Part shown: one piece after another, positions 581 through 51,014 of the stretch
Layout: each line of letters opens with the position of its first letter
Numbering within the stretch: position 1 is the stretch's first letter
Virus record (IMG/VR): IMGVR_UViG_3300003323_000779
Span: 1-51,441 of that record
Reading direction: 5' to 3' (one strand)
Length of the DNA: 51,441 bases
DNA from: a virus
The notes under the pieces: generated by a model
Database searches by the model: none
What the model was told of the DNA's origin: nothing
Seen by the model: the letters and a program-made list of their open reading frames with translations, nothing else
Translations under genes and position numbers: made by a program

Positions 581-3500
581 TTATCCTCCTGCAGGCATCC
601 GGCGCGCGACCTGGATCTGTCGGTTGACGTGCTTTCCGACCTCCCGCCCGATCTCCGGGATACTCATGCCCTGGCCGTTGACGCCGGAGATATGTACCTG
701 GATGTTTGTGGTGCCGCTGCGCCCCTGGGTGATCGCCCGGGTCAATTCTGCTGGTAGAGCCATCGAGCCGGGCCGGGGCTGCACGAGCATCTCGCCACGG
801 TGGACCATCGCCACATCGGGGAGCAGGCCGCCCTTATCGAATCCGAAGATTTTCGTGATACCGCCCAGGAATCCACCGGCCTTGCCAGCGCCGCCGAGGA
901 GAGCCGCCAATGCTCCCCCACCAGGCAACATGGAGATCAGGGGACCGAGACCGCTCAGGCCGTTGAGAATTCCGGCTGCCTGCGCCGCCGCGCTCCCTGG
1001 TGCCGGGTGCATCAATGAGGACGCGGTGCCCAGGGCGTTGATCGCGGTGGTGGCTGTCGTCGCCGGGCTGGAGGTGTCGGTCGGAGCGGTACCGGCAGCG
1101 GTATCCGTCGGCTTGTTATCCGGGTTATCCGTGGACTGCTTCAGGCGTCCCGCCGCTTTGTCGATCGCCTCTGCTGCTTTGGTAAGAGCGTCAGCAGCGC
1201 CCTTGATAGAGAGCGCGCCCGCGTCCATGTGTTGCTGTGCGAGACGTGCCGATTTCTCCTGCTCGCTCTCGGGATCGGTGGGGCGTTTGAAGAGCCGGTT
1301 TGCGATACCCGCTGCGAGTCGCATCGTGGCGAGCCTGGTCACCAATTGGGTGAGCTGCTGACCGATCGATTGGAAGAGCGATCTGATCCCGCCCTGCAGA
1401 TCGCCCTTGAAAATGCGATCGATCGCCGGAGAGAGCGTGTTCTGAAGGATGGCGCTCGCCTGCGCTACGTTGTTCTGCCAGTACTGGAGGTCGATCTCGT
1501 ATTTGATCCGCTTGTTGAAGGTGCTCTGAGCATCCGCCAGAATGCCCTGGGTGTCACGTCCACCCAGAGCTGCTTTCGCTCCCGCCTTCAGATCATCTTT
1601 CGCATCCTGCTCGTGCTGGAAGACGGCGTGCGCTGCCTCGGCAGCATCCTGCTCTTCTATGAGAGCTGTGCGCTTTTTGCGTCCCTCGATAATGGTCGCG
1701 TCAAGTGCCTTCTGGACCTCTTCCTGCTCTTTGCTGCCCGCGACCTGGGAAGCGAGCAAGAAACGAAGCTGCTGCTGGTAATCCGCGACTGAGAGACGGT
1801 TCGCCTTGCGCTCCTCTTCCAAACGGTCCAGGTTGAGCTTCAGGGCTTCGGATGCGCTCCGCTCCGCTTCCTTGTCGGCATCTTTTCGGGCCTTGGCGAG
1901 TTCCTGATATTGATCCTTCTTCGCCTGATCGATCTGGTCCGTCCGGCTCTTTGCGTCGCGTCCGATCGATCCGCTCAGTGGATCTCCCGTAAACAATCCC
2001 CCGATCTCCCCCGCCGCGTCCGTTTTCGCCTTGATCAGCGCCACCTTAGCGGAGGCGATATCGTCGGCGTTCTTGGTAGCCTGTGCCCGCTTCAGATCCG
2101 CTTCCGCCGCGCTGACGGTGTTACTGGCGATCTCCGCCTGCTTCTTGGTGATCAGGATAGAGAGGCGACGCATCTCCTTGACCGTGGCATCAAGCTGCGC
2201 CGGATCACTGATATCCTTCAGCGTGTCCTTGAGTCGATCGAATGCGCCCTGGATTGTGCCAATCGTCTGGGTGATCTTGGTGTTGGCTGCCTCTCGCAAG
2301 GCATCGGCGATCGCGTCTGCGTTCTTATCCGCTGGGGCTGGTGTCTTCGGGTTGGTGGTCTTCTTTCCCGGTGCGCCAAAGTCACCGCCGCCGAAATCAG
2401 AGATCGGCTTGCCGGTGTGCTCATCGTAGTTCGTTCCGAAATCGAAACCGCCCTCTCCGGCAGCCGTTGTCGCATGGGGCCCACTGGGTTGCGGGAGAAA
2501 TCCCTTGATCTGGTTGCGGAGGCCCTGGAGGAAGTCGCGGAATTGTGGGAGCATGCCCTGCAGCCCGGCGAGAATGCCGTCGGCGATCTGCGCACCAATA
2601 TCCAGGCCGGTCAATCGCGCGGTCGCCTGCAGGAGGTGCTTGTCGGCATCGAACATGCTCTGAAACAGGAGCGCGATCGTGTTGCCGAGTCCCTCGAAAA
2701 CATGCTTGACCGCATCCACCAGCTTCTCAGACAGGTTTCCGGCTGTGTCGATGAGCGTTTTCCATGCTCCCTCCCAGTCGCCGTTGATCACCTGCATGGT
2801 GAGCTTTAGAACGCCGAGGATCGCGTCCAGCGCCCCACCGATAATGTCCTTGACGATCTCCCACGCATGGGAAATGATCGCCATGATGCGCTCGCCATGG
2901 TCATGCCAGAACTGCTGGATTGCGGTGACGACGGTATGGACCGTCTCCGCCATAATGGGCAGGTTGTCCTTCCACCAGGCCACTACCTTTGCCCACTGCT
3001 CGCGGATGAAAGTCGCTACCGGGCCGAGCACCTTCTTCGCGGTGTCCTGGATGCCGCCCGCATTCATCGTGAACGCCGCGCCCAGGGCAGCCACCGCGGC
3101 GATCGCCGCAGCCACCGGCACGCCGATCGCTCCGATCGCGCCCACCACGGCGGCGACGGCGGGAAGCACTACTCCCAGGCCCGCGACCAGGCCGATGGCG
3201 ACGACGATCACGCCCTGGATGCTCTTGGGTAGCGCTTCAAACTTTGCGATCAGGTTCTCGATAACACCGACCAGTTTGAGCTTCATCGGAAGTAAGATGC
3301 CGCCGATCGTCGCCGATAGGTCGGTCATCTTGCTATCCAGGATGCGCTGCTGGTTGGCGAGTCCTCCCGAGGTTCGCGCGAAGTCGCCCTGGGCGTTGCC
3401 CGTTTTGGCGAGGATCAAAGCATAGGCCGCCTGCATTTTCACGGAGTCGGGAAGTGTGCCCTTGGTGGTGGTGATCAGGCCGAGATCCAGCGCCTTCTGC

Positions 3501-5012: not shown

Positions 5013-5055
5013 GGAGAGGCTCCTGAGCAGTGGTATTGGGGGAGGGAAAGAGGCT

Positions 5056-5096
5056 GAATATACGGATATCCGAAAAGCGTATATTCGGATATCCGG
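5056..5096. repeat. CG-phased palindromic repeat, locus 1
   Basis: In the gap between the tail-tube-2 stop and the gpG start lie 8-base units of the form CG-N-A-T-A-T-N. GAATATACG and CGTATATTC form inverted arms, and GGATATCC occurs twice. Its sequence is unlike the surrounding genes in base content and belongs to the same family as eight other loci in the window. Confidence 0.85.
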
Positions 5097-9825: not shown

Positions 9826-9871
9826 CCGAATATTCGGATGTTCGGATGTACGGATATCCGTACATTCGAAC
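9826..9871. repeat. CG-phased palindromic repeat, locus 2
   Basis: Located between the capsid start and the decoration-protein stop. It contains a perfect 12-base palindrome at 9826-9837 and a perfect 20-base palindrome at 9846-9865 (centre GGATATCC), with CG dinucleotides spaced eight bases apart. Confidence 0.85.
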
Positions 9872-17365: not shown

Positions 17366-17403
17366 CGTATATTCGTATATCCGACTGTTCGAATATCCGT
17401 ACA
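17366..17403. repeat. CG-phased palindromic repeat, locus 3
   Basis: Lies in the 153-base gap between the two small membrane-protein genes. Units CGTATATT, CGTATATC and CGAATATC are present. The rest of this gap (17404-17497) shows no gene or clear signal. Confidence 0.8.
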
Positions 17404-20220: not shown

Positions 20221-20276
20221 TACGGATATACGTATATCCGAATATTCGTACAACCGAACATCGTACAATCGTATAT
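20221..20276. repeat. CG-phased palindromic repeat, locus 4
   Basis: The longest locus, about 56 bases. It contains the perfect 18-base palindrome CGGATATACGTATATCCG at 20223-20240, followed by CGAATATTCG, and partial units out to CGTATATT. Confidence 0.85.
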
Positions 20277-20345: not shown

Positions 20346-20378
20346 CGAATATACGTATATACGGCTGTTCGGATATCG
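20346..20378. repeat. CG-phased palindromic repeat, locus 5
   Basis: Contains ATATACGTATAT, a 12-base palindrome at 20349-20360, and a partial second unit ending TTCGGATATCG. Separated from locus 4 by about 70 ordinary bases. Confidence 0.8.
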
Positions 20379-20670: not shown

Positions 20671-21753
20671 ATGCCTGGAAACTCGCCGATGCAGCGGCGT
20701 GGTTCTGGTGGAGATTTGACTGGCCGGACTGTCAACCCGGATCGCGTCAATCACTTACGCCTGGTCACGGTGGAAGATCCTCTTGTCGATGTAGAGGATG
20801 ATGTTACCGAGACGCCTGGCGAAACTCCCCCGGATGTCGTTGCCCTCGTTCTCGACAATTCACGTAGCGCCGACACGCGCGCTGCCTATGCTCTCGACTA
20901 TCGCAAATATTTTGGCGAGGACTATACGCCTGCAGATGTGATCAAATGGGCGGCCCAGCCGGTACCGAAACTCGCAGCGGACCTGCAGAAGTTCAAGGCG
21001 GACCAGATCAAGAAGGGGATGAGCGAAGCAACGGTCAACCGTCGCCTGGCGAGTCTCCGATCGCTTCTGTCGCGCTGCCACGCGCTCGGGTACTCGCTCA
21101 CCGACGGGCGCGGCCTGGTGACCTCGGAACACGTCACGCCCTACAGAGACACTCGTGGCGTTTCCCTCAAGGTCATGCGCCGTCTCATCGCTCTCCCGGA
21201 TGTGTCGACGGAGAAGGGGAAACGGGACCTCGTGATATTGCGCCTCGGCCTGGAGAACGCCCTCCGCTGCATGGAGATCGTCGCCATCAATCTTGCGGAT
21301 CTATCTATGGTCGATCGTCGGCTCCGGATCAGGGGCAAGGGCCGGGGCACACGCACCGAATGGGTAGATATCTCCGCCAAGGCGCTCGATGCGATCGAGC
21401 AATATCTGATCGAGACGAAGCGATGGAAGCAGACGGGGAAGGGGAAGGGTCCGATCGGGACGGGGCCGCTGCTGCTCTCCTGTGACCACCGGAAGGAATA
21501 CGCGGGTACCCGGCTCACCAGGGATGGTTTATATTCCGTGGTGATGTCGTTCGGCGAGGCGATCGGCGTCCGGGTGACACCGCACAAGCTCCGGCACTCG
21601 GCGATCACCGAGGTCCTGCGATTGAATGGCGGGAACCTGGTGGAGGCCCAGGACTTTTCCCGGCACTCCGATCCGCGCACGCTGATGATCTACAACGACA
21701 ACGCGAATAAGGCGCAGGGCAAGATGACCCGGAAGCTCTCACGGGAGTTGTGA
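20671..21753 (+). CDS. int: Tyrosine recombinase (phage integrase)
   Basis: Site-specific integrase for insertion into and excision from the host chromosome; 360 residues. Residues 52-150 are the SAM-like core-binding domain; the catalytic domain has the full set: R199 in NALRCMEIV, K223 in RGKGRG, H305 and R308 in HKLRHS, H332 in FSRHSD and nucleophile Y341 in LMIYND. It therefore looks active. It stands alone on the plus strand and a 36-base palindrome follows its stop. The true start may be ATG 7 codons in, which has a GGAAA upstream. No lambda-type excisionase is obvious; the HTH protein encoded next door is a candidate. Confidence 0.95.
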   Translation: MPGNSPMQRRGSGGDLTGRTVNPDRVNHLRLVTVEDPLVDVEDDVTETPGETPPDVVALVLDNSRSADTRAAYALDYRKYFGEDYTPADVIKWAAQPVPKLAADLQKFKADQIKKGMSEATVNRRLASLRSLLSRCHALGYSLTDGRGLVTSEHVTPYRDTRGVSLKVMRRLIALPDVSTEKGKRDLVILRLGLENALRCMEIVAINLADLSMVDRRLRIRGKGRGTRTEWVDISAKALDAIEQYLIETKRWKQTGKGKGPIGTGPLLLSCDHRKEYAGTRLTRDGLYSVVMSFGEAIGVRVTPHKLRHSAITEVLRLNGGNLVEAQDFSRHSDPRTLMIYNDNANKAQGKMTRKLSREL

Positions 21754-21778: not shown

Positions 21779-21814
21779 CCGGATGTTCGTATATACGTAT
21801 ATACGAACATCCGG
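21779..21814. repeat. CG-phased palindromic repeat, locus 6: perfect 36-base palindrome
   Basis: A perfect 36-base palindrome with no central spacer lies between the convergent integrase and HTH genes. Each half reads CCGGATGTTCGTATATAC. CGs sit at 8-base spacing. It could form a cruciform or act as a bidirectional terminator, though it lacks a T-run. Confidence 0.9.
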
Positions 21815-21824
21815 TCATCTCCTC

Positions 21825-22523
21825 TCAATCCCTGTATTGGGGGCCGTGTTTCTTTTGCCGCTTTGCTGCCTTGGCTTGCGCTTTCTCCTGTGCTTTGGAA
21901 ACGAGATCCGCGATGTGCTGCAGCACCATGTTCCGGCTCCACTGGCCGCGTAACACGGGCGGGACCCGGCGACCAACGAGGTGGGGTTTATCCGTCAGGC
22001 CCAGGAGCTGCGCGGCCTCCGTTTGATCTATCAGGCGATCCTCTACCGGTGGCAAGATGCCAGAGGTTTTGAAGCGCTGGATGGCGATCTCGGCGAAGGT
22101 ATCGGCGAACGTCCTCCCGATCTGCTCGACCTGGCCCGCAACGATGGGGGAGAGAGCCACCGCGCCCGATCCGGCAGCCGGACCAGTTCCATTGTCCGTG
22201 TTGGGCGTATATTCGGATATACGGGTATCTGGGTGTTCCTCAAAGATCCCGTCGATCGCAGGACCTGCAGCGATTCTCTGGCGGAGGAATGGTTCTGCCG
22301 TTTTGGGCGAGATCTCTCCCCGCCCGTGCGCCTTGGCGAGATCCCGGAAGAGCCAGAGCCGATCAGCAGGGTATTTCGTTCCGCGTCCGTTGCCGGTCGC
22401 ACCGAGCAGCTCGTCGATGATAGGAATGGACAGATAGCGGTTCATCGCCGAGCGGTCCTTGTTCTCAGTCCACCCCAACTCCTTCAGCACGTCAGCGAGG
22501 CTCAGAAGCGCTTCATCAGCCAT
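21825..22523 (-). CDS. HTH-containing protein, last gene of the early operon
   Basis: A 232-residue protein starting at 22523 (MADEALLSLADVLKEL) with AAGGAG upstream, overlapping the initiator gene end by eight bases. It has an N-terminal MerR/excisionase-like part (ATGNGRGTKYPADRLWLFRD) and a second HTH-like part (IDQTEAAQLLGLTDKPHLVG). The linker between them is encoded by a palindromic repeat (HPDTRISEYTPNTD). Adjacent to the integrase, so an excision or replication accessory role is plausible; function is not established. The C-terminal tail is lysine-rich. Confidence 0.65.
   Translation of the reverse strand: MADEALLSLADVLKELGWTENKDRSAMNRYLSIPIIDELLGATGNGRGTKYPADRLWLFRDLAKAHGRGEISPKTAEPFLRQRIAAGPAIDGIFEEHPDTRISEYTPNTDNGTGPAAGSGAVALSPIVAGQVEQIGRTFADTFAEIAIQRFKTSGILPPVEDRLIDQTEAAQLLGLTDKPHLVGRRVPPVLRGQWSRNMVLQHIADLVSKAQEKAQAKAAKRQKKHGPQYRD
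22206..22238. repeat. CG-phased palindromic repeat, locus 7, inside a gene
   Basis: The near-palindrome CGTATATTCGGATATACG and a degenerate second unit lie inside the coding frame of the HTH protein, adding residues in an otherwise Pro/Gly/Ala-rich linker. It is the only copy of the family within a gene body. Confidence 0.75.
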
Positions 22524-23583
22524 TTGCAACGGCTCCTTCCTGGAGTGTCATTAGCTGGACCGCGACCGTCTCACAGGCGAACTGCGCAGCAATCTCCTCG
22601 ATCAGTGGGCGATGGCGCTGCTCTATCCAGCCGCGCGTGAAAGAAGTCTTTGCACCAAGCGTTAGTTTTCCATCGGCGTAGCGGATAGGGGTAAGCGATC
22701 TAAAGTGAGTTTCCATAGTCGGTACATTGACGCGGTTTGCCAGCTCGCCCAGCGTAGCGGTCCAGAGCATCAAAGCAGTCTCCTGCTCGGCCTGCGCTCT
22801 GTTCCCTTGATTCACCATAGGAGTATCCGGTGCCTGCATCTCTGGGAATAGGGAGAGCGTCTCATCGTCCGGGTCTCTATCCCCTTGGGGATCGCATTTA
22901 TGCGAGGGGTCCGTCTCCTCTGGGAGAGGAGATGATAGAGATATGGGAGAGGACATGGAAGGAGACATCTCAGTAATATCCTTGGTGATTACCTCAGTCA
23001 ATCCTTGGGTTTTCCCGCGAGCAATCTTTCGGAGTTGCCCAAACCTATCTTTGGGCATTCCCGAAACATAGGGTTCGGGATTCCCATCTATTGGGTTTCC
23101 CGTATCCTCAGCATTGGGGATTCCCGAATGTTCAGCATTGGGCTTTGCCCAAAGTTTGGTTTTGACTTCTACGTACTCCCGCAAGATCTGGATGAGTTCG
23201 GGCAGCTTGACGCGATACCAGAGCTTCATCGGGTTGCCCTTCTTCTGCTCCTCCAGGACACCTATCTTGACCAGTCGCTTTCGCGCGGTCATCTGCTCCT
23301 CGTAGGATAGGCCGGTCTGTTCGCTGATCTGCTCGATCGTCATCCAGAACCAACCGTTGCGTTTCTGCGCGGTGGGTGTACGGGTCCAGAACCAGAATTG
23401 AGAGAGTAGGAGGCCCGCCGTCGTGCTGCCTACTGCGAGAGCGAGATCCACGCGGTGGGCGACGATTCGGCCAGAGCCGAGGAGATCCATTACCGGATCG
23501 ATCTCATTGTCTGCTTGGGCAGACGTGCCTTTAGAAGAGGGATCGGCATTGACAGTGGCCGTCCCGGTTGGGTATACTGACAT
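22516..23583 (-). CDS. Replication initiator with C-terminal DnaA domain-I-like module
   Basis: A 355-residue protein starting at the ATG at 23583 with AGGAG six bases upstream. Residues about 25-130 form a winged-helix domain like phage replisome organisers (VDLALAVGSTTAGLLLSQFW, MTIEQISEQTGLSYEEQM, KRLVKIGVLEEQ). Residues about 143-193 are a low-complexity linker whose DNA carries iterons. Residues about 270-345 match the DnaA N-terminal domain (LWTATLGELANRV, THFRSLTPIRY, DGKLTLGAKTSFTRGWIEQR), which in DnaA binds the DnaB helicase. I infer that it opens the origin and recruits the host helicase; no phage helicase is seen. Confidence 0.75.
   Translation of the reverse strand: MSVYPTGTATVNADPSSKGTSAQADNEIDPVMDLLGSGRIVAHRVDLALAVGSTTAGLLLSQFWFWTRTPTAQKRNGWFWMTIEQISEQTGLSYEEQMTARKRLVKIGVLEEQKKGNPMKLWYRVKLPELIQILREYVEVKTKLWAKPNAEHSGIPNAEDTGNPIDGNPEPYVSGMPKDRFGQLRKIARGKTQGLTEVITKDITEMSPSMSSPISLSSPLPEETDPSHKCDPQGDRDPDDETLSLFPEMQAPDTPMVNQGNRAQAEQETALMLWTATLGELANRVNVPTMETHFRSLTPIRYADGKLTLGAKTSFTRGWIEQRHRPLIEEIAAQFACETVAVQLMTLQEGAVANG
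23005..23152. repeat. Iterons inside the initiator gene, probable replication origin
   Basis: A 13-base motif TTGGGNNTTCCCG recurs at 23005, 23051, 23074, 23091, 23114 and 23138, with a degenerate copy near 23027, so the spacing is close to 23 bases or two helical turns. The motif is itself an imperfect inverted repeat. Since 23 is not a multiple of 3, protein selection cannot explain the spacing. Lambda-like phages also carry origin iterons inside the initiator gene. Confidence 0.7.
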
Positions 23584-23586
23584 CAC

Positions 23587-23744
23587 ACACTCCTATGGGC
23601 CGATGGTTCGCGCTGGTTGGCCCGGATGATATGCCTCACGCCTGCATTTCGTGAAGCATTTTGAAGACGCCGCTCTGTTGACAGCAGGGTGGCGTTTTCA
23701 TTTATTGGATAATCATAGCAATGAAATGGCTATGTTGTCAACGT
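23587..23744. other. Leader region of the initiator gene
   Basis: Besides the promoter, this 158-base gap contains a hairpin with GACGCC and GGCGTT arms around a CTGTTGACAG tip (about 23665-23697) and the ATTTCGTGA half-site near 23646. The hairpin would lie in the 5' leader of the initiator mRNA and might control its translation. Confidence 0.4.
23712..23741 (-). promoter_or_regulatory. Candidate promoter for the initiator gene, with inverted repeat
   Basis: On the minus strand TTGACA (23741-23736) and TATGAT (23717-23712) are 18 bases apart, close to consensus. CATAGC (23714-23719) and GCTATG (23729-23734) form an inverted repeat across the spacer and -10, a possible operator. The promoter overlaps the space just after the preceding gene's stop and would allow the initiator to be expressed separately. 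Confidence 0.65.
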
Positions 23745-32500: not shown

Positions 32501-32530
32501 TTATAAATATTTTTACATGAATCTTGTAAA
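32501..32530 (-). promoter_or_regulatory. Candidate early promoter with operator
   Basis: The operator core TTTACATGAATCTTGTAAA at 32512-32530 is the third copy of the motif found between the switch genes. On the minus strand its TTTACA end can act as a -35, followed 17 bases later by TTTATA (32507-32502). Repressor binding would block this early promoter, by analogy with lambda pL/OL. Confidence 0.6.
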
Positions 32531-32566
32531 AATTCAACCAGGTAATTGTAAAACGGAAAGCAAGTT

Positions 32567-32821
32567 TTACGCCTGGGCGGCAGGTTCTCCTTGTGGGGGC
32601 TGTGGTTGGAACTGAGGAAAATGCGTCAGTATCCTCTGGTATTTTTCCATCGGTGGGGCGTGAGGTCCCCTTCGCCATTCCGCTACCGTGCGTGGCGCTT
32701 CGCCTGTGCGAGAAGCGAATGCCTCATCAGTGAGGCCCGTCCATCGGATTAGCTGGCTGATCATGCTTGATCCGAACTTGCGCCCCCTGCCGCGTTTGCT
32801 CTGCCGTTCCAAAGTGCTCAT
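32567..32821 (-). CDS. Cro-like HTH regulator
   Basis: An 84-residue protein from the ATG at 32821 (MSTLERQSKRGRGRKFG). Residues about 20-60 form a helix-turn-helix (SQLIRWTGLTDEAFASRTG, APRTVAEWRRGPHAP) of the XRE/Cro type; the C-terminus is Pro/Gln-rich. It is divergent from the repressor gene with shared operators between them, the usual arrangement for a Cro-like lytic switch protein. After the stop lies a 7-base inverted repeat (GTAAAAC/GTTTTAC). Confidence 0.7.
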   Translation of the reverse strand: MSTLERQSKRGRGRKFGSSMISQLIRWTGLTDEAFASRTGEAPRTVAEWRRGPHAPPMEKYQRILTHFPQFQPQPPQGEPAAQA

Positions 32822-32833
32822 AGTTTCTAAATT

Positions 32834-32852
32834 ATTACACGAATCTTGTAAA
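32834..32852. promoter_or_regulatory. Switch operator, copy 2
   Basis: ATTACACGAATCTTGTAAA, an imperfect palindrome with TTACA/TGTAA arms. It covers the predicted start of the Cro-like transcript, just downstream of its -10. Confidence 0.75.
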
Positions 32853-32858
32853 AAATCG

Positions 32859-32888
32859 AACATACCAGTTTTTACAACAATCTTGTAA
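32859..32888 (-). promoter_or_regulatory. Candidate promoter of the Cro-like gene
   Basis: On the minus strand TTACAA (32888-32883) and TATGTT (32864-32859) lie 18 bases apart. The -35 falls inside the operator at 32871-32889 and the start region inside the one at 32834-32852, so a repressor on these two sites would shut the promoter. Confidence 0.5.
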
Positions 32889-32889
32889 C
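32871..32889. promoter_or_regulatory. Switch operator, copy 1
   Basis: TTTACAACAATCTTGTAAC, the same AATCT core with TTTACA and TGTAA arms as the other two copies. It lies nearest to the repressor gene and overlaps the -35 of the divergent promoter. Confidence 0.75.
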
Positions 32890-32980
32890 ATTGCACTGGT
32901 CTACGTGTCCCGCTGATATGCGATTTGGCCCACATACTCCCTTGCCTCCTCTCATGGGAGGAAAATTACAGTTATTCACT

Positions 32981-33451
32981 ATGGATTACGCGCAGGAGCG
33001 AGCAGAGCGCGGGCGGCGCTTCTCGCAATGGTTACGAGACAAATTAGTTGATGCTAATACTGGAAAGGTCATGCGCCCTTCTGTTGCAGCCAGGAAGCTC
33101 GGTATTTCAAATACACGAGTAATATCTCTGCTCAATGACTGCTTTGATAAGTATGCGGGGACGTTGAGCCTTCCCTCAGAAGAGACGATCGATAAGATCG
33201 CCGCGCGGTTGGGGAAAGGTGAAGAGGGAATAAAGGCACTGGCCAGCGAAGCGAAGGTCATTATCGGCCTGGTCCCGGATGGATCTGCTCCAGGAGTGTT
33301 TATACCGGAACCAGGGGCAAGACAGGCGACATTAGTCACCGGTGAAACGATTTTCCTTGCTCCCGATGACGAGGAGCCGGACAAGACGATAAAGGCCCTA
33401 AACGCTTTCCTTTCCGCCTGGCATTCCAAGCCTACCGATGCGGGCAACTAA
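32981..33451 (+). CDS. Putative lysogeny repressor (HTH protein)
   Basis: A 156-residue protein, start chosen at the ATG at 32981 (MDYAQERAERGRRFSQW). Residues about 25-80 form an HTH (SVAARKLGISNTRVISLLND, LPSEETIDKIAARLGKG) of XRE type; the rest is a small domain with EPGARQATLVTGETIFLAPD. It lacks an obvious LexA-like Ser/Lys self-cleavage domain, so induction may depend on an antirepressor or other signal rather than RecA-driven cleavage. It lies opposite the Cro-like gene across three operator copies (two in the gap). Confidence 0.7.
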   Translation: MDYAQERAERGRRFSQWLRDKLVDANTGKVMRPSVAARKLGISNTRVISLLNDCFDKYAGTLSLPSEETIDKIAARLGKGEEGIKALASEAKVIIGLVPDGSAPGVFIPEPGARQATLVTGETIFLAPDDEEPDKTIKALNAFLSAWHSKPTDAGN

Positions 33452-35707: not shown

Positions 35708-36151
35708 CTAATTTCCTTTTCCTTTGATTTTCGGTTTGCGCTCACCGCCCGGTTGGGGCTTTGCGGAGCAGATCGGGCATAGGTCGGCATGGTTGTGGCG
35801 GCGTTTCAGTCGGCGCTCCATGCGTTCGGTGACACCGGGAAGGGTCTCCACCAGGAGCGGCACGGCAACGGCTGACAGTCCGGACACGTCGAGCGATGGT
35901 TCGGAAGTCCAAGCCCGGACGACGCGCCATTCGATTTTTCGTGCGTTGAAGGCGTGGACAATGGCAGGAGTGACGATTTCCGCGTCCGATCGGTGCGAGA
36001 GAATCCGGTCCCGTAGGCGCACCGCAAACCCCATGTAGTGACGGGCGGAATGCCTGTCGTTGCCGAGCGGGGTCTCCGCGTGAATCAGGTAGACGGTGCC
36101 GGGGATCGTTCCCGGTCGGTGATATCGTCGTGTCCTTCTTGTTGCTGCCAT
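35708..36151 (-). CDS. GIY-YIG-like endonuclease
   Basis: A 147-residue protein with AAGGAG before the ATG at 36151. The stretch GTVYLIHAETPL, then ARHYMGFAVRLRDRILSH, corresponds to the GIY and YIG strands in a divergent group of this nuclease superfamily I know from phages (VYLIH and HYxGxA). A C-terminal CPIC and a basic tail (KPKIKGKG) may hold DNA. Its cellular role is not known; next to Gam, an action in recombination or DNA processing is plausible. Confidence 0.6.
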   Translation of the reverse strand: MAATRRTRRYHRPGTIPGTVYLIHAETPLGNDRHSARHYMGFAVRLRDRILSHRSDAEIVTPAIVHAFNARKIEWRVVRAWTSEPSLDVSGLSAVAVPLLVETLPGVTERMERRLKRRHNHADLCPICSAKPQPGGERKPKIKGKGN

Positions 36152-36225: not shown

Positions 36226-36573
36226 TCACCGGAGACCGATCAGGTAGTCGATGTAATCCGGGTCGTTGTATTTCTCCGCCTCCGCTTCGATGTTGGCGAG
36301 GTGGGCCTCCTCGTCGCGCACAAATTCAATGTGCTTGCAGGTCGGGTTTGAGAAATGCCGGTGGTTCGCGTGGAACGGGCAATCGCAGTCCGAGTGAGTT
36401 TCGGAATAGATCGCCACGTTGTAGTTCACCGGGAGACCGTCCGCTTTGGGCGGGGTCGTTACCGTGAACCATCCGTCGATCTCGCTGCGGGTGTAGGTGT
36501 AGCCCTGAGCAGCCATCTTGCGCGCGCCTGCATGTGCGATGCGGGTCATTGTTGTTTCGTTCTCTGCAACCAT
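36226..36573 (-). CDS. SWIM-type zinc-finger protein
   Basis: A 115-residue protein with AAAGGA before the ATG at 36573. Its core CDCPFHANHRHFSNPTCKH fits the SWIM pattern C-x-C-x(n)-C-x-H, a zinc motif in proteins that bind DNA or partner proteins. It is the first gene of the minus-strand operon from the divergent operator region at 36624-36712 and might be the regulator of that region, which is not proven. Confidence 0.65.
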   Translation of the reverse strand: MVAENETTMTRIAHAGARKMAAQGYTYTRSEIDGWFTVTTPPKADGLPVNYNVAIYSETHSDCDCPFHANHRHFSNPTCKHIEFVRDEEAHLANIEAEAEKYNDPDYIDYLIGLR

Positions 36574-36623: not shown

Positions 36624-36652
36624 AGTATACCCAACGTTGGGTATATCGTCAA
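36624..36652 (-). promoter_or_regulatory. Promoter of SWIM operon with 20-base palindromic operator in its spacer
   Basis: On the minus strand TTGACG (36652-36647) and TATACT (36629-36624) are 17 bases apart. A perfect 20-base palindrome, TATACCCAACGTTGGGTATA at 36626-36645, fills the spacer. A protein bound there would directly block polymerase. Confidence 0.75.
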
Positions 36653-36666
36653 GCGTTTTGACGAAA

Positions 36667-36709
36667 AAACGTTGGGTATTTCATTGACAGATTTACCTAA
36701 CGGTGGGAT
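36667..36709 (+). promoter_or_regulatory. Two further operator copies near the plus promoter
   Basis: AACGTTGGGTATT at 36669-36681 and the imperfect TACCTAACGGTGGGATA around 36694-36710 are copies of the ACCCAACGTTGGGT motif. One is just upstream of the plus -35, the other in its spacer. Confidence 0.65.
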
Positions 36710-36712
36710 AAT
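36684..36712 (+). promoter_or_regulatory. Strong plus-strand promoter, apparently leaderless
   Basis: TTGACA (36684-36689), 17 bases, GATAAT (36707-36712). Transcription should start at 36719-36720 and the first ATG is at 36720, with no ribosome site between. The mRNA is therefore predicted leaderless. Confidence 0.75.
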
Positions 36713-36719
36713 CACAGGC

Positions 36720-36971
36720 ATGGAAAGTACAGACGAATCGAAACCGGCTGCCCTGCTCAAAGCGGGAGACAGCGATCCTGTGGAGCGCAGTGAGGCCGCG
36801 CGGCTCCTGGGAAAGGTTAGTACCGACCGCAAGGCAGAGGCCGCGCGAGAGAACGGGAAGTTAGGCGGCAAGCCCAAAAACGCCACGGACAGCGAGGAAA
36901 CGCGCCGTCTCAAGAGCGACAAGGCGAAAGCAGCGTGGGCATTGCGGAAGCAGAAAGCAGGTAATCTGTGA
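36720..36971 (+). CDS. Small basic protein, first gene of the plus accessory operon
   Basis: An 83-residue lysine/alanine-rich protein (SEAARLLGKVSTDRKAEAAR, ENGKLGGKPKN). The ENGKxGGxPK pattern is common in small phage and plasmid proteins without assigned function. Its ATG coincides with the predicted transcript start. It could be the regulator of the palindromic operators, or a short nucleic-acid binding protein. The stop overlaps the GTG of the next gene. Confidence 0.6.
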   Translation: MESTDESKPAALLKAGDSDPVERSEAARLLGKVSTDRKAEAARENGKLGGKPKNATDSEETRRLKSDKAKAAWALRKQKAGNL

Positions 36972-37465
36972 ACTCGACAACGGAACCGGTAACACCGAAG
37001 GCGCTCAACCAGTGGGCGCTGGATGCGGCAGCAGTGCGCCAGGGGATCGGCAAAGCGCGACTCTGGTTAATGAAGGCGATCCGCGCGGCAGAAGGCGACA
37101 ACGCCCTGGTGGCCGACCTGGAGAGCGCAAACTCGGAACTGTTCACGGCACAGGAGACCTCCCAGCGCCTCGTCTCCGGCGTCGGTGTTGCTGCTTTCGC
37201 CCATGCACTTCCCCCCGGACTCGGGACACAAGCATCGATCCCCCTGGAGCAGCTCGACACACCAGACACCCGCGAACTGCTTGCGCTCCTGGAGCACGCC
37301 CAGGCCGTCGCCGAGCGCATCGATCGCGCCCGTGGCCGAACCGTCGGCGAGAAGCTCCCGCTGTATCCTGGCGAGAGCGCTGGCACGGACCTGGCCGAGT
37401 CTGTTTCTCTGCTTGCGCTACGGGTCCGGGGAGAGGTTCATGGGGCGCGCTCGCCGCACGAGTGA
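36968..37465 (+). CDS. Hypothetical protein of plus operon
   Basis: A 165-residue protein from a GTG at 36968 that overlaps the previous stop (GTGA). It is helical and alanine-rich (GKARLWLMKAIRAAEGD, ELLALLEHAQAVAERIDRAR), with a Gly/Pro-rich linker between two helical pairs. No family recognised. Translationally coupled to the first gene. Confidence 0.55.
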   Translation: MNSTTEPVTPKALNQWALDAAAVRQGIGKARLWLMKAIRAAEGDNALVADLESANSELFTAQETSQRLVSGVGVAAFAHALPPGLGTQASIPLEQLDTPDTRELLALLEHAQAVAERIDRARGRTVGEKLPLYPGESAGTDLAESVSLLALRVRGEVHGARSPHE

Positions 37466-37477
37466 AAGGAATAGACG

Positions 37478-37969
37478 ATGTTGATTAGTGATCACGATCT
37501 CGAATACATCGACTGGAAACGCGCGCACGGGATCTGCAACGTCCGCATATACCGCCGTCCGAAGGCCATTGTGCTCTCCGATCCAGGGATCGCTCCCCTT
37601 ATCCCAGTTGGCCCTGGTCCGGATCTCTATATCATCGTGCTCTCCGAGTTGGCTTCCAACGTTGGGCCGAGCGTAACCAACACGCTCGAACAGATCGCAA
37701 CTACGGTTGCCTATCGCCGTGATCTGCTCGATCTGCCGGAGGATCTCGACCCGTTGCATTATCCGCACTTCGATACTGTTTTCGTGGAGAAGTCTGCCTA
37801 TGAGGAAGAGGAGCCGGACGCGGTATTCAGCCGCGTCACATTCGGTCAACTCGCGTGGGTAAACGATCGCCACGAATGGAGAGATCCACGTTGGGAACGG
37901 TTGCCGCGTTCAACATTCCTTGCTCTGATCGATCAAGAGGATTTCTACATTGAGGATGCCTTCAAATGA
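37478..37969 (+). CDS. Hypothetical protein of plus operon
   Basis: A 163-residue protein with AAAGGA before the ATG at 37478. It is an acidic alpha/beta protein with the hydrophobic strand PGPDLYIIVLSELASNVG and an end rich in Asp/Glu/Phe. No family recognised. Confidence 0.55.
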   Translation: MLISDHDLEYIDWKRAHGICNVRIYRRPKAIVLSDPGIAPLIPVGPGPDLYIIVLSELASNVGPSVTNTLEQIATTVAYRRDLLDLPEDLDPLHYPHFDTVFVEKSAYEEEEPDAVFSRVTFGQLAWVNDRHEWRDPRWERLPRSTFLALIDQEDFYIEDAFK

Positions 37970-38021
37970 TGATTTCCGCTTCTTTGTCATGGAACTTAGT
38001 GTTTACCTGTAAGGAGTAACT

Positions 38022-38912
38022 ATGCCAACGACACTCGATAGAACATCGACCGGCGACGTGAAGAATATCTCGGTGATCCTGCCGAATGATCCCTATCGCT
38101 ATCTCAAAGGTGCAGCGGAGCAGGTCGCCGCCTGGAACACCGTCGCTCAGAGCGCTGGTGAAGCTATGGGGCAAATCATCCCACTTCACTTCCCCTCTTT
38201 CGTGCTGGTCGAATGGCAGCGCGGCGGAGGAGTTGGCGAACAGGAATGGGACGCAAACAGCGCCTGGTCAATCCTGGGATATTTCCCCGATCGTTCCTCG
38301 GCTGGTATCCATGCGGGAGCGCGGCGAGCAGTGGCAAGACAGAAGGGGCGACCTCCCTATCTTGCTGTGTGGCTCCTGCATAGCTCTCACCATTCGCACC
38401 TGAATAACTCATGGGGCGGTCAGCTTATGGACGTATGGCCGGATAGGTTGGTGGAATTTGGACCCGATGGAAAAGCGATCGATCCGAAGCATTTCTACAC
38501 GCTACAACCGATCGAGAACCGCCGCCCGATGATGGCAGAGGAGTTTGTTCCTGCGGAGTGGGCGGCAAAGTGGCTGCCGGATGCGCTCCTGCCTGAGAAC
38601 TGGGAGGATCATCTCCGGCGCTGGCACGATGGCGCGGCTCCCTCTGACAAAGAGATCGAGCGTGCCCTCATAACCACAACTTCGGCACTCTTCAGCGCGG
38701 CAAACGTCGTGGCGATGGATCTATCTCTGAACCATCCGAGTATCGCGGAAGCACGCGAGGAGCAGATCGCCTCCTATGTAAAGACGATCGACGAAGCCCG
38801 GACTGTATGTAATCGTCTTAGCCCGGTTGCACCGCTCGGCATGGCAGACGGAGTACCGGCGGTGATCGCTCGGAAAGTGGCGGAGCGTCGCAAGCAGGGA
38901 GGAGATAGCTGA
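38022..38912 (+). CDS. Hypothetical protein of plus operon
   Basis: A 296-residue protein with AAGGAG before the ATG at 38022. It has a His-rich stretch (AVWLLHSSHHSHLNNSWG), many Trp residues and a helical C-terminus (AREEQIASYVKTIDEART). The His/Trp pattern could mark a metal or nucleotide site, but I see no known catalytic motif. One-base overlap with the next gene indicates coupled expression. Confidence 0.55.
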   Translation: MPTTLDRTSTGDVKNISVILPNDPYRYLKGAAEQVAAWNTVAQSAGEAMGQIIPLHFPSFVLVEWQRGGGVGEQEWDANSAWSILGYFPDRSSAGIHAGARRAVARQKGRPPYLAVWLLHSSHHSHLNNSWGGQLMDVWPDRLVEFGPDGKAIDPKHFYTLQPIENRRPMMAEEFVPAEWAAKWLPDALLPENWEDHLRRWHDGAAPSDKEIERALITTTSALFSAANVVAMDLSLNHPSIAEAREEQIASYVKTIDEARTVCNRLSPVAPLGMADGVPAVIARKVAERRKQGGDS

Positions 38913-39742
38913 TGTTTGGAACATTAGCCGCTGCTATCACCAACGGCATGGAAGACGGTATAGCGAAAGGCCATCGGTTTGAGCGAGATGTCACCACCTG
39001 GACAAAGCGCCCTGGTGGCTCCGTCTTGATCCCATGCACAAATCCCGGCTGCCAGTGTTCGCTGGTCGCCTATTCCGATGGCGGGTATCTCGCACGATCG
39101 GTCGTTGATGCTTGCCCCGCCGAGCATCCGCTAACCGAATCCGATCTCATGGCGTCAGATCAGCCGATCCTCTGGCAAGAGCTGCAGAAACCCGACTGGG
39201 AGTTCTGGATGCTCGAAGGCAAATCGGCGATCGGATCGTACTATATCACCGAGGGTGGATCTTCCCCGTATATCGTGATTTTCTATGAGACCGGATCATA
39301 TCCCTATCCAAAGCCCGATGGATTAGAAAGCGATGATGGATTTCTGGGACGTGCGGAAAGTATAGAGTACGCCAAAGGGCTTTGCAACGATCATCTGGCT
39401 AAAGGAAGGCCACGCCCCAAAGGCCCGCGCTATATGCACCCTGCAAACGGCGGTGAGGCGATCGATCTCTACACTGCCAGCAGTGAAGTTCTGATTGCCG
39501 CGCTCGCTGGCGTAGAAAAGAACATGGAGGGGCTGGTTGAGCATCTATCTTCGCTGGAGGAACATCTGGCGAAACAGGAGTGCGATCCAGACAGTGGAGA
39601 CCTGCTCTATGACGAGGGGCTGGATGCTCAGGATGACGTAACCGAGATGGAGCAGATAATGGAGCAACAGGAAAAAGGTGTGCAGTATATGCGCGATCTA
39701 ATTGCCTGGCGAAAAGAGCGAGAGGCTGCAGGATTGCCATAG
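38912..39742 (+). CDS. Hypothetical protein of plus operon
   Basis: A 276-residue protein starting at the last base of its predecessor. It has a cysteine pair in IPCTNPGCQCSLVAY, a Tyr-rich central part (YITEGGSSPYIVIFYETG) and a C-terminal acidic coiled coil (EKNMEGLVEHLSSLEEHLAK, EMEQIMEQQEKGVQY). No family recognised. The coiled coil suggests it forms oligomers. Confidence 0.55.
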   Translation: MFGTLAAAITNGMEDGIAKGHRFERDVTTWTKRPGGSVLIPCTNPGCQCSLVAYSDGGYLARSVVDACPAEHPLTESDLMASDQPILWQELQKPDWEFWMLEGKSAIGSYYITEGGSSPYIVIFYETGSYPYPKPDGLESDDGFLGRAESIEYAKGLCNDHLAKGRPRPKGPRYMHPANGGEAIDLYTASSEVLIAALAGVEKNMEGLVEHLSSLEEHLAKQECDPDSGDLLYDEGLDAQDDVTEMEQIMEQQEKGVQYMRDLIAWRKEREAAGLP

Positions 39743-39766
39743 GTCGGACCTAAATGGGGAGGGATT

Positions 39767-40099
39767 ATGTACCAGCATGAATTGACCGCCGATGAGAAAT
39801 CCCGCCTAACTGGCGACGAGGTAGTATTTAGCCTCCGCTGCCCAAATTGCGGCTGCGTTTACGATGCTGACTTCGAAGAGATGGAAGGGGCGGAAATGTT
39901 GTGGGATTGTACCTGCCCTGGTTGCGGGGACGTCACCAACTATGCACTGGACGCAGACGGAGATGTGATCTGGCCGCCTCTAGAGGATGGCGCGGCAGAG
40001 CATCCTGACATGGAAGTTCCAGCTATTGCGCATCGCGCCTGGCTCGTCGAGGTTGAACTCGATCGGGAGTACAGGGAGGCGGTGCAGAAAACGCCATAG
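39767..40099 (+). CDS. Zinc-ribbon protein, last gene of plus operon
   Basis: A 110-residue protein with GGGAGG before the ATG at 39767. The two pairs CPNCGCVY and CTCPGCGDV make a clear zinc ribbon; the rest is acidic. Function unknown; likely binds nucleic acid or a partner protein. It is followed after 40 bases by a large palindrome. Confidence 0.6.
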   Translation: MYQHELTADEKSRLTGDEVVFSLRCPNCGCVYDADFEEMEGAEMLWDCTCPGCGDVTNYALDADGDVIWPPLEDGAAEHPDMEVPAIAHRAWLVEVELDREYREAVQKTP

Positions 40100-40139: not shown

Positions 40140-40175
40140 TTGGATCCCCATTGGAGATCTCCAATGGGGATCCAA
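40140..40175. terminator. 36-base perfect palindrome between converging operons
   Basis: TTGGATCCCCATTGGAGA is followed directly by its exact complement. It lies 40 bases after the plus operon and 230 bases beyond the late operon. On the minus strand it is followed by TTTTTCG, so it can serve as a terminator there; it may work both ways. Confidence 0.7.
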
Positions 40176-40327: not shown

Positions 40328-40407
40328 TCCCACTACAGCACGTGGAGATAAAAAGGAGATCACGAGCGACTGTTCGCCACCTGACCTCCTTTTTCCTCTA
40401 TTCAGCT

Positions 40408-42880: not shown

Positions 42881-42922
42881 CCGGATATCCGTACAAACGA
42901 ATATACGAATATCCGAACATCG
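42881..42922. repeat. CG-phased palindromic repeat, locus 8
   Basis: Located between the 42930-43217 gene and the holin. Units CGGATATC, CGTACAAA, CGAATATA, CGAATATC and CGAACATC follow one another. Confidence 0.85.
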
Positions 42923-46552: not shown

Positions 46553-47662
46553 ATGGGAGAAGGAAAGATCTCGAACCGCATTGATGCGATCGATGCTCTA
46601 CGCGGGCTGGCGTGTGTCTGGGTACTTTTGCTCCACGCCTCGATTGAACTCAAGGGCTTCGGTGATAGAAGCATCCTGGATGCGATCGCATCCGTCGCGG
46701 TGCTGCCGGGCTACCTGGGAGTCAATCTGTTCCTGGTGCTGAGTGGCTTTTGCCTGTACTACCCGCTGGCCCGGACAGGAGAGATGACCGTCAACTATGG
46801 CGCTTTCATGGCACGCCGGTTTCGTCGGATCAATCCCCCCCACTATCTCGTTCTGGCGATATGCCTTTTGCTCTGTTGGGTCCCCGGATTCGCGCGTCTC
46901 AACCGGCCAGAGCACTGGTACGATCCCCTTCTCCATCTCCTACTGCTGAACAATCTCACGCCGTCGACAATCTCCTCGATCAATCCTGCGTTCTGGTCGC
47001 TGGCACTGGAGTGGCAGCTTTACCTCGTGTTCCCCGTGTTCCTGTGGCTGCTCCGGCGTGGCGGCGTGCGCTACCTGCTCATCGCTACGCTCCTGGTCTC
47101 GCTGCTGGCCCAGGTCTCGGCATTTGCCTATCTGGTGCAGCATCGATCGTCGGATGCTCTCGCGTCGGTACTGCTGCTGTCATTACCATCCCGCTGCTTT
47201 GAGTTCGCGGCGGGAATGGTGGCCGCGGATTGTGTCGCACGGGGAAAGATGCCACGCTTTGCCGGTGTGGCCGCCGCGCTGGCCGCCGTGACGATGTTCT
47301 CCATCATCCCAGCATCGCGCCCAGCCGATCGGCAATTTGAGGTGGACGTATATCCCTTCTCTGCCGTAGTCTTTGCCTGGCTCGTCGCCTGGGCCGCAAT
47401 GCTTCCACGAGAGATCTGCAAGTCAGGACCGGGCCGCGTCGCTGCCGTGGTGGGCGAGCGCTCGTATAGCATCTATCTGGTCCATTACCCGGTGATCCTG
47501 GCGATCCTCCCGGTCCTGCACCTGTTGCATCTCCCGTCGCCGTTTCCGCTGGCCATAGTGCTCGCTGCGAGTATCGGCGTGGGCGCACTGATATATCTCC
47601 TGGTCGAGCGCCCTTTCCTGAAGCATCGGATCAGAACGGAGCTGGCGGTACCGGGTAGGTAA
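46553..47662 (+). CDS. Acyltransferase 3 family membrane protein (surface sugar O-acetylation)
   Basis: A 369-residue polytopic membrane protein of the OafA/NodX group that moves acetyl groups across the membrane to cell-surface sugars. It has about ten hydrophobic segments and the family's motifs: RIDAIDALRGLACVWVLLLH at the start (catalytic-site R and H), GVNLFLVLSGFCL, MARRFRRINPPHYLVL and a C-terminal LVERPF. It is on the plus strand, opposite to all tail genes around it, and its end overlaps the tail-hub gene's end by 32 bases. This position is typical of a moron that alters the host receptor in the lysogen. Confidence 0.92.
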   Translation: MGEGKISNRIDAIDALRGLACVWVLLLHASIELKGFGDRSILDAIASVAVLPGYLGVNLFLVLSGFCLYYPLARTGEMTVNYGAFMARRFRRINPPHYLVLAICLLLCWVPGFARLNRPEHWYDPLLHLLLLNNLTPSTISSINPAFWSLALEWQLYLVFPVFLWLLRRGGVRYLLIATLLVSLLAQVSAFAYLVQHRSSDALASVLLLSLPSRCFEFAAGMVAADCVARGKMPRFAGVAAALAAVTMFSIIPASRPADRQFEVDVYPFSAVVFAWLVAWAAMLPREICKSGPGRVAAVVGERSYSIYLVHYPVILAILPVLHLLHLPSPFPLAIVLAASIGVGALIYLLVERPFLKHRIRTELAVPGR

Positions 47663-50970: not shown

Positions 50971-51014
50971 GTACGACTGTTCGAACATCCGTATATTCGG
51001 ATATACGATCATCG
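50971..51014. repeat. CG-phased palindromic repeat, locus 9
   Basis: Lies between the hub gene start and the end of the Dit-like gene, and supplies that gene's stop codon (TGA at 51011-51009). It contains GTTCGAAC and CGTATATTCGGATATACG. Confidence 0.85.

Follow-up and report, generated by a model that had tools for sequence, protein, structure and literature searches.

A working definition of phage accessory loci and their independent transcription have been described (PMC7067206, PMC6469090), and the bstA gene, which lies next to the repressor gene, is read from the cI promoter (PMC7067206). We analysed an operon of six plus-strand genes (36720-40099) in the IMG/VR virus record IMGVR_UViG_3300003323_000779, the whole stretch of which (51,441 nucleotides) is termed the window below. 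Like bstA, the operon is a small gene group that lies apart from the structural and replication blocks, in the early/immunity part of the genome, and is predicted to be transcribed independently of the lytic operons. It differs from bstA in being situated 3 kb from the repressor-like gene, in possessing its own operator-like repeats and in having no recognised sequence family in common with it.

Regions of the lambda OR/OL type combine two divergent promoters, three related operators and one leaderless message, the cI protein being made from the leaderless PRM message. The region in front of the operon is similarly equipped with a divergent promoter pair, three operator-like sites and an apparently leaderless message. 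However, no HTH repressor was found in the six-gene transcript and the three sites, named here O1 to O3, are unrelated in sequence to the phage's own repressor-type sites. Our tentative reading, to which we assign a probability of roughly 0.45, is that a temperate phage here carries an accessory ('moron'-like) operon under operator control; the operon is plausible as an accessory unit, rather than a demonstrated new system.

Genomic setting of the operon

The virus record was taken as a complete genome because identical stretches of 244 bases, forming a perfect terminal repeat, are found at both ends. It encodes portal, head, tape-measure and terminase proteins, a sigma factor, an O-like replication protein, a Mu Gam-like protein, a holin, an endolysin and a tyrosine integrase (20671-21753, plus strand). 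On the basis of the integrase and of a separate repressor-like/Cro-like pair, the phage is considered temperate. Its terminase is 40-41% identical to those of two IMG/VR contigs and up to 39% identical to loci in assemblies of Anaerolineae and other Chloroflexi, which makes a member of the Chloroflexota a plausible host. A DNA-level search with the 34.5-42.5 kb region retrieved no similar phage record. Besides the operon, the recognised plus-strand genes are those of the integrase, of a repressor-like protein (32981-33451) and of an O-acetyltransferase (46553-47662; Pfam E 1.2e-32), nearly all others being on the minus strand. The O-acetyltransferase gene, wedged between large minus-strand genes, is likely a second accessory gene and possibly surface-modifying.

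The operon lies between the lysis operon, which is convergent with it, and a divergent operon containing the Gam-like gene. Gene 1 (36720..36971) encodes P1, a basic protein of 83 aa (pI 9.7) with a KAEAARENGKLGGKPK stretch. Gene 2 (36968..37465) begins with a GTG codon, overlaps gene 1 by 4 nt and encodes P2 (165 aa). It is followed by gene 3 (37478..37969), encoding P3 (163 aa, net charge -13), by gene 4 (38022..38912), encoding the soluble P4 (296 aa), and by two genes for very acidic proteins, gene 5 (38912..39742; P5, 276 aa, net charge -24) and gene 6 (39767..40099; P6, 110 aa, pI 4.1, net charge -19). Successive genes are separated by -4, 12, 52, -1 and 24 nt, and genes 3 to 6 are preceded by GGA/GGAG-type ribosome sites. 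Of 2000 random sequences matched in dinucleotide composition, 0.35% contained one ORF of at least 276 aa and none contained four ORFs of at least 163 aa. This computed layout confirmed every ORF of the preliminary description with its length and ends, and bore out both the tight coupling of the genes, with gaps of only -4 to 52 nt, and their orientation opposite to almost all genes of the phage. GC3 is 0.57-0.73 in the operon, 0.70-0.80 in the sampled late genes, 0.55-0.77 in other early/regulatory genes and 0.62 in the replication gene; owing to this overlap with early genes such as the replication gene, composition gives no demonstration of a foreign origin.

Promoters, operator-like repeats and terminator-like hairpins

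A plus-strand promoter is predicted in front of gene 1 (36684..36712; TTGACA-17-GATAAT with a TG before the -10, 11/12 match). The genome holds three sites as good as this one, against 0.1 expected per genome from shuffles. Where the replication gene begins, two other near-consensus promoter-like sites (11/12) were observed, one on each strand (23712-23741 and 23549-23578). Since the -10 of the operon promoter ends at 36712 and the gene 1 ATG begins at 36720, 7 nt after it, the gene 1 message is probably leaderless. A divergent promoter (36624..36652, minus strand; TTGACG-17-TATACT) is predicted for the leftward operon, whose genes beyond it encode a 115-aa protein (36226-36573) carrying, in our reading, a SWIM-type CDC...CKH motif, a 147-aa protein and the Mu Gam-like protein. 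The 147-aa gene (35708-36151) adjoins the Gam-like gene, and its product resembles by eye a GIY-YIG-like nuclease, with no match in the libraries.

Three operator-like sites were computed around this promoter pair. O1 (36626..36645) is the perfect 20-bp palindrome TATACCCAACGTTGGGTATA, which overlaps the minus-strand -10 and spacer; it is among only four perfect palindromes of at least 20 bp in the genome and has a single occurrence there, allowing up to three mismatches. O2 (36668..36682), which has a single conserved half-site, lies immediately before the plus-strand -35, and O3 (36695..36713), with the degenerate sequence TACCTAACGGTGGGATAA, overlaps the plus-strand -10. The strong regulated promoter proposed earlier is therefore retained as a near-consensus predicted promoter, its regulation being a prediction from the operator-like repeats.

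By its appearance, the region 32513-33451 is the phage's own lysis-lysogeny switch. It comprises a minus-strand gene for a Cro-like HTH_3 protein (32567-32821) and the plus-strand gene for the 156-aa repressor-like protein, whose HTH nature is our reading of the sequence, the only Pfam match being weak. Two TTACANNAATCTTGTAA sites lie between these genes and a third at 32513, against 0.01 such sites expected, and the O1 palindrome differs in sequence from these repressor-type sites. Given this HTH pair with its own three operators at 32.5-33.5 kb, we rejected the operon as the immunity region. Another family of palindromic sites, composed of overlapping CGNATATNCG units with an 8-bp period, yielded 34 pattern matches genome-wide against 0.05 expected. 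These sites (5055-5095, 9827-9868, 17366-17399, 20223-20248, 20346-20371, 21779-21814, 22206-22223, 42882-42915 and 50982-51007) are almost all located in gaps upstream of minus-strand genes, including late genes, and that at 21779-21814 is a 36-bp perfect palindrome. They may be late promoters used by the phage sigma factor or, alternatively, stoperator-like repressor sites.

At the other end of the operon, a computed terminator-like bidirectional hairpin (40345..40402; z -4.5 on the plus and -6.4 on the minus strand) separates it from the endolysin gene and faces the lysis operon. The terminator attributed earlier to the operon is thus present as a prediction, but is common to both operons. 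Two more hairpins downstream of the operon have their T-runs on the minus strand. A 36-bp perfect palindrome (40140..40175) is terminator-like for the minus strand; it was rejected as the operon terminator because of its minus-strand T-run and, as an intrinsic terminator, would serve the lysis operon.

The regulatory logic that we infer for the operon follows the manner of lambda OR. A dimeric regulator would bind O1 to O3 and, because O1 at the minus-strand promoter is perfect and O3 at the plus-strand promoter degenerate, would shut the Gam side first and the six-gene operon only when abundant. At low levels of the regulator, the better O1 would favour a state in which the operon is on and the Gam side off. 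Shared operators would also permit joint repression of both promoters. The six genes could accordingly be viewed as an early lytic operon instead of a lysogeny-fitness unit, repressed together with the Gam operon by one regulator and activated upon infection so as to take over the host or protect DNA. The same operator family is present at both promoters, which could be silenced together, and among the products of the partner operon is a Mu Gam-like end-protection protein. However, operators of unequal quality do not require joint repression and the operon is directed away from the early block, so that we hold this explanation to be unlikely, albeit worth keeping in mind.

Proteins encoded by the operon

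No transmembrane stretch and no HTH or other DNA-binding family were detected in the six proteins. As previously noted, none of them matches a replication or virion family; the defence or anti-defence system suggested at the same time found no counterpart, no such family being matched in PADLOC. For P1, P2, P4 and P5, none of the searches detected a relative, P1 being without a match in Pfam, PHROG, NCBIfam and PADLOC. Relatives of P4 and P5 were sought, with none found, in IMG/VR, INPHARED phages, plasmids, 23 + 400 whole genomes and 29 more genomes, nor for P4 alone in GTDB genome contigs. A lone match spanning the P2-P3 join of a concatenated query was discarded, as was a P5 match at one locus (L094) lying within an aldo/keto-reductase-like frame. 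The single-sequence model of P4 was unusable (pLDDT 35). P5 contains a possible metal site, CTNPGCQC...CPAEH, and a C-terminal coiled-coil-like stretch; the coiled coil described earlier agrees with this reading of the sequence, the corresponding PDB match being only weak. P6 carries the zinc-ribbon-like motif CPNCGC...CTCPGC, as reported before, but zinc-ribbon matches were only sub-threshold and a PADLOC match to PDC-M14A (E 7e-4) covered the zinc ribbon only.

P3 could be assigned computationally to a rare unnamed family with the motif TELxxNxGxS[VI]TN ... VEHY ... PRW. A profile of six family members, from which P3 had been left out, recovered P3 at E = 2.2e-14 against a background of 2939 window ORFs and 2000 shuffled P3 copies, the best of which scored E 0.075; the match covers the core and the C-terminus. 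P3 has in common with the proteins of Rubrobacter marinus (WP_166398777.1) and Methylibium petroleiphilum (WP_011831715.1) a CxVRIY N-terminus, the SEL/TELxxNxGxSxTN core and the C-terminal PRW, and differs from most relatives in having VEKSAY at the position of VEHY. Searches of Pfam, PHROG, NCBIfam and PADLOC with P3 returned nothing above chance, a PADLOC match to SduA (E 0.022) extending over 29 residues only. By tblastn, P3 alone weakly matched a Methylibium plasmid and also hit one genome from the phylum sampled; the shared motif was seen on reading out these two loci. The relatives themselves, and a DNA pattern of the motif, then served as queries that brought up further members. One of the six loci obtained with this pattern (L121) was rejected as chance, and matches to P3 at three others (L104, L100 and L098) look like chance as well. 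Two alignments were unproductive: viral relatives were not found with A3, and A5 did not provide a pattern that could be used.

Relatives of gene 3 are carried by plasmids of Methylibium, Caballeronia, Burkholderia and Sulfuricystis (four Burkholderiales/Nitrosomonadales) and of Rubrobacter, and by five IMG/VR virus contigs, the proteins of two of these (L122 and L123) being identical. The family is rare: members turned up in 3 of the 400 genomes sampled from one phylum, and two other samples of 149 genomes each contained none. Its neighbours vary from locus to locus. The plasmid relatives lie near SSB, RdgC, LigA or RuvC genes and one viral relative (L120) near a DNA methylase. At 2030-3021 of a 293-kb virus contig (L119), the relative directly adjoins two paralogues. 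One of them matches DUF3293 and, with a score of 27.7, falls just short of the S-adenosylmethionine lyase cut-off of 28. None of the relatives' loci that were read has relatives of P1, P2, P4, P5 or P6 alongside, and P2, P4, P5 and P6 were not found in the virus records carrying gene 3 relatives. Neighbourhood comparison consequently shows gene 3 recurring on plasmids and phages, but the other operon genes do not travel with it in the loci examined. The gene 3 relative of L119, modelled in place of P3, gave a pLDDT of 88.8 and a pTM of 0.83, and Foldseek found nothing at E <= 0.001 for this model in PDB or BFVD. Several weak matches, mostly of 80-100 columns, were to the endonuclease/exonuclease/phosphatase fold, with TM-scores below 0.45 among the matches listed and no catalytic set identified in the family. 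A PDB sequence match to k-cTRP5 (alignment A10, E 1e-7) was rejected, as no stretch passed alone and the match was not repeated with the larger alignment A11.

It is to be noted that the absence of relatives is weak evidence of novelty, since most of the phage's early genes lack relatives as well: six Pfam families in all were recognised among 46 ORFs scanned in the early region, some of these ORFs being doubtful. No functional family was found for any of the six proteins, in line with the preliminary description, but orphan status is normal here. It is therefore the layout of the operon, and not the lack of matches, that underlies its ranking as the best candidate for an undescribed system. 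The genes might thus be nothing more than rapidly evolving phage genes that serve no joint purpose and are orphan simply because collections lack close relatives of the phage. Consistent with this, when six other proteins of the phage were searched as a concatenate against 22 genomes or records, most of them with related terminases, no relative was retrieved, and the closest terminases are just 39-41% identical. Nevertheless, the tight organisation, the dedicated promoter with operator-like repeats and the opposite orientation suggest a functional unit, and the gene 3 family has been kept on unrelated mobile elements. We consider the reading as genes without a joint purpose improbable.

Discussion

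The reading of the locus as an operator-controlled accessory operon retains part of the earlier proposal, an isolated unit in a temperate phage with its own predicted operator-controlled promoter, and adds a third gene from a family that occurs on plasmids and other phages. The defence or anti-defence role suggested before found no matching family, and the unit lies apart from the immunity module. The idea of a second lambda-like switch, in which gene 1 or gene 2 would be the regulator of O1 to O3, made from a leaderless message, and genes 3 to 6 its cargo, appeals to the three-operator divergent layout, to the start codon 7 nt past the -10 and to the basic P1, but is very unlikely with no DNA-binding family detected among the six products and a recognised phage switch with different operators elsewhere. 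In its boldest form, the switch would be independent, with a small DNA-binding regulator of a new type (gene 1 or 2) and, as cargo, an undescribed set for anti-restriction or defence to which the gene 3 family belongs; this seems to us more improbable still.

As to the function of the accessory operon, its soluble products, with P3, P5 and P6 acidic and P6 bearing a metal-site motif, may benefit the phage by acting on host factors or on DNA transactions. The company kept by gene 3 relatives (SSB, RdgC, LigA, RuvC, the SAM-lyase-like protein and the methylase), together with the three acidic products, makes it reasonable to guess at a role in DNA protection or anti-restriction. The likeliest single function that we can name, and a doubtful one, is protection from restriction or from other attack by the host.

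The phage group is poorly sampled, its best terminase relatives in genomes being mostly in Chloroflexota assemblies. The gene 3 family offers a compact, testable domain that occurs in different phyla, on plasmids as well as phages, and to which none of the libraries searched gives a name or function. Should the operon prove to protect the phage or the lysogen, an undescribed set would be added to the accessory functions of phages.
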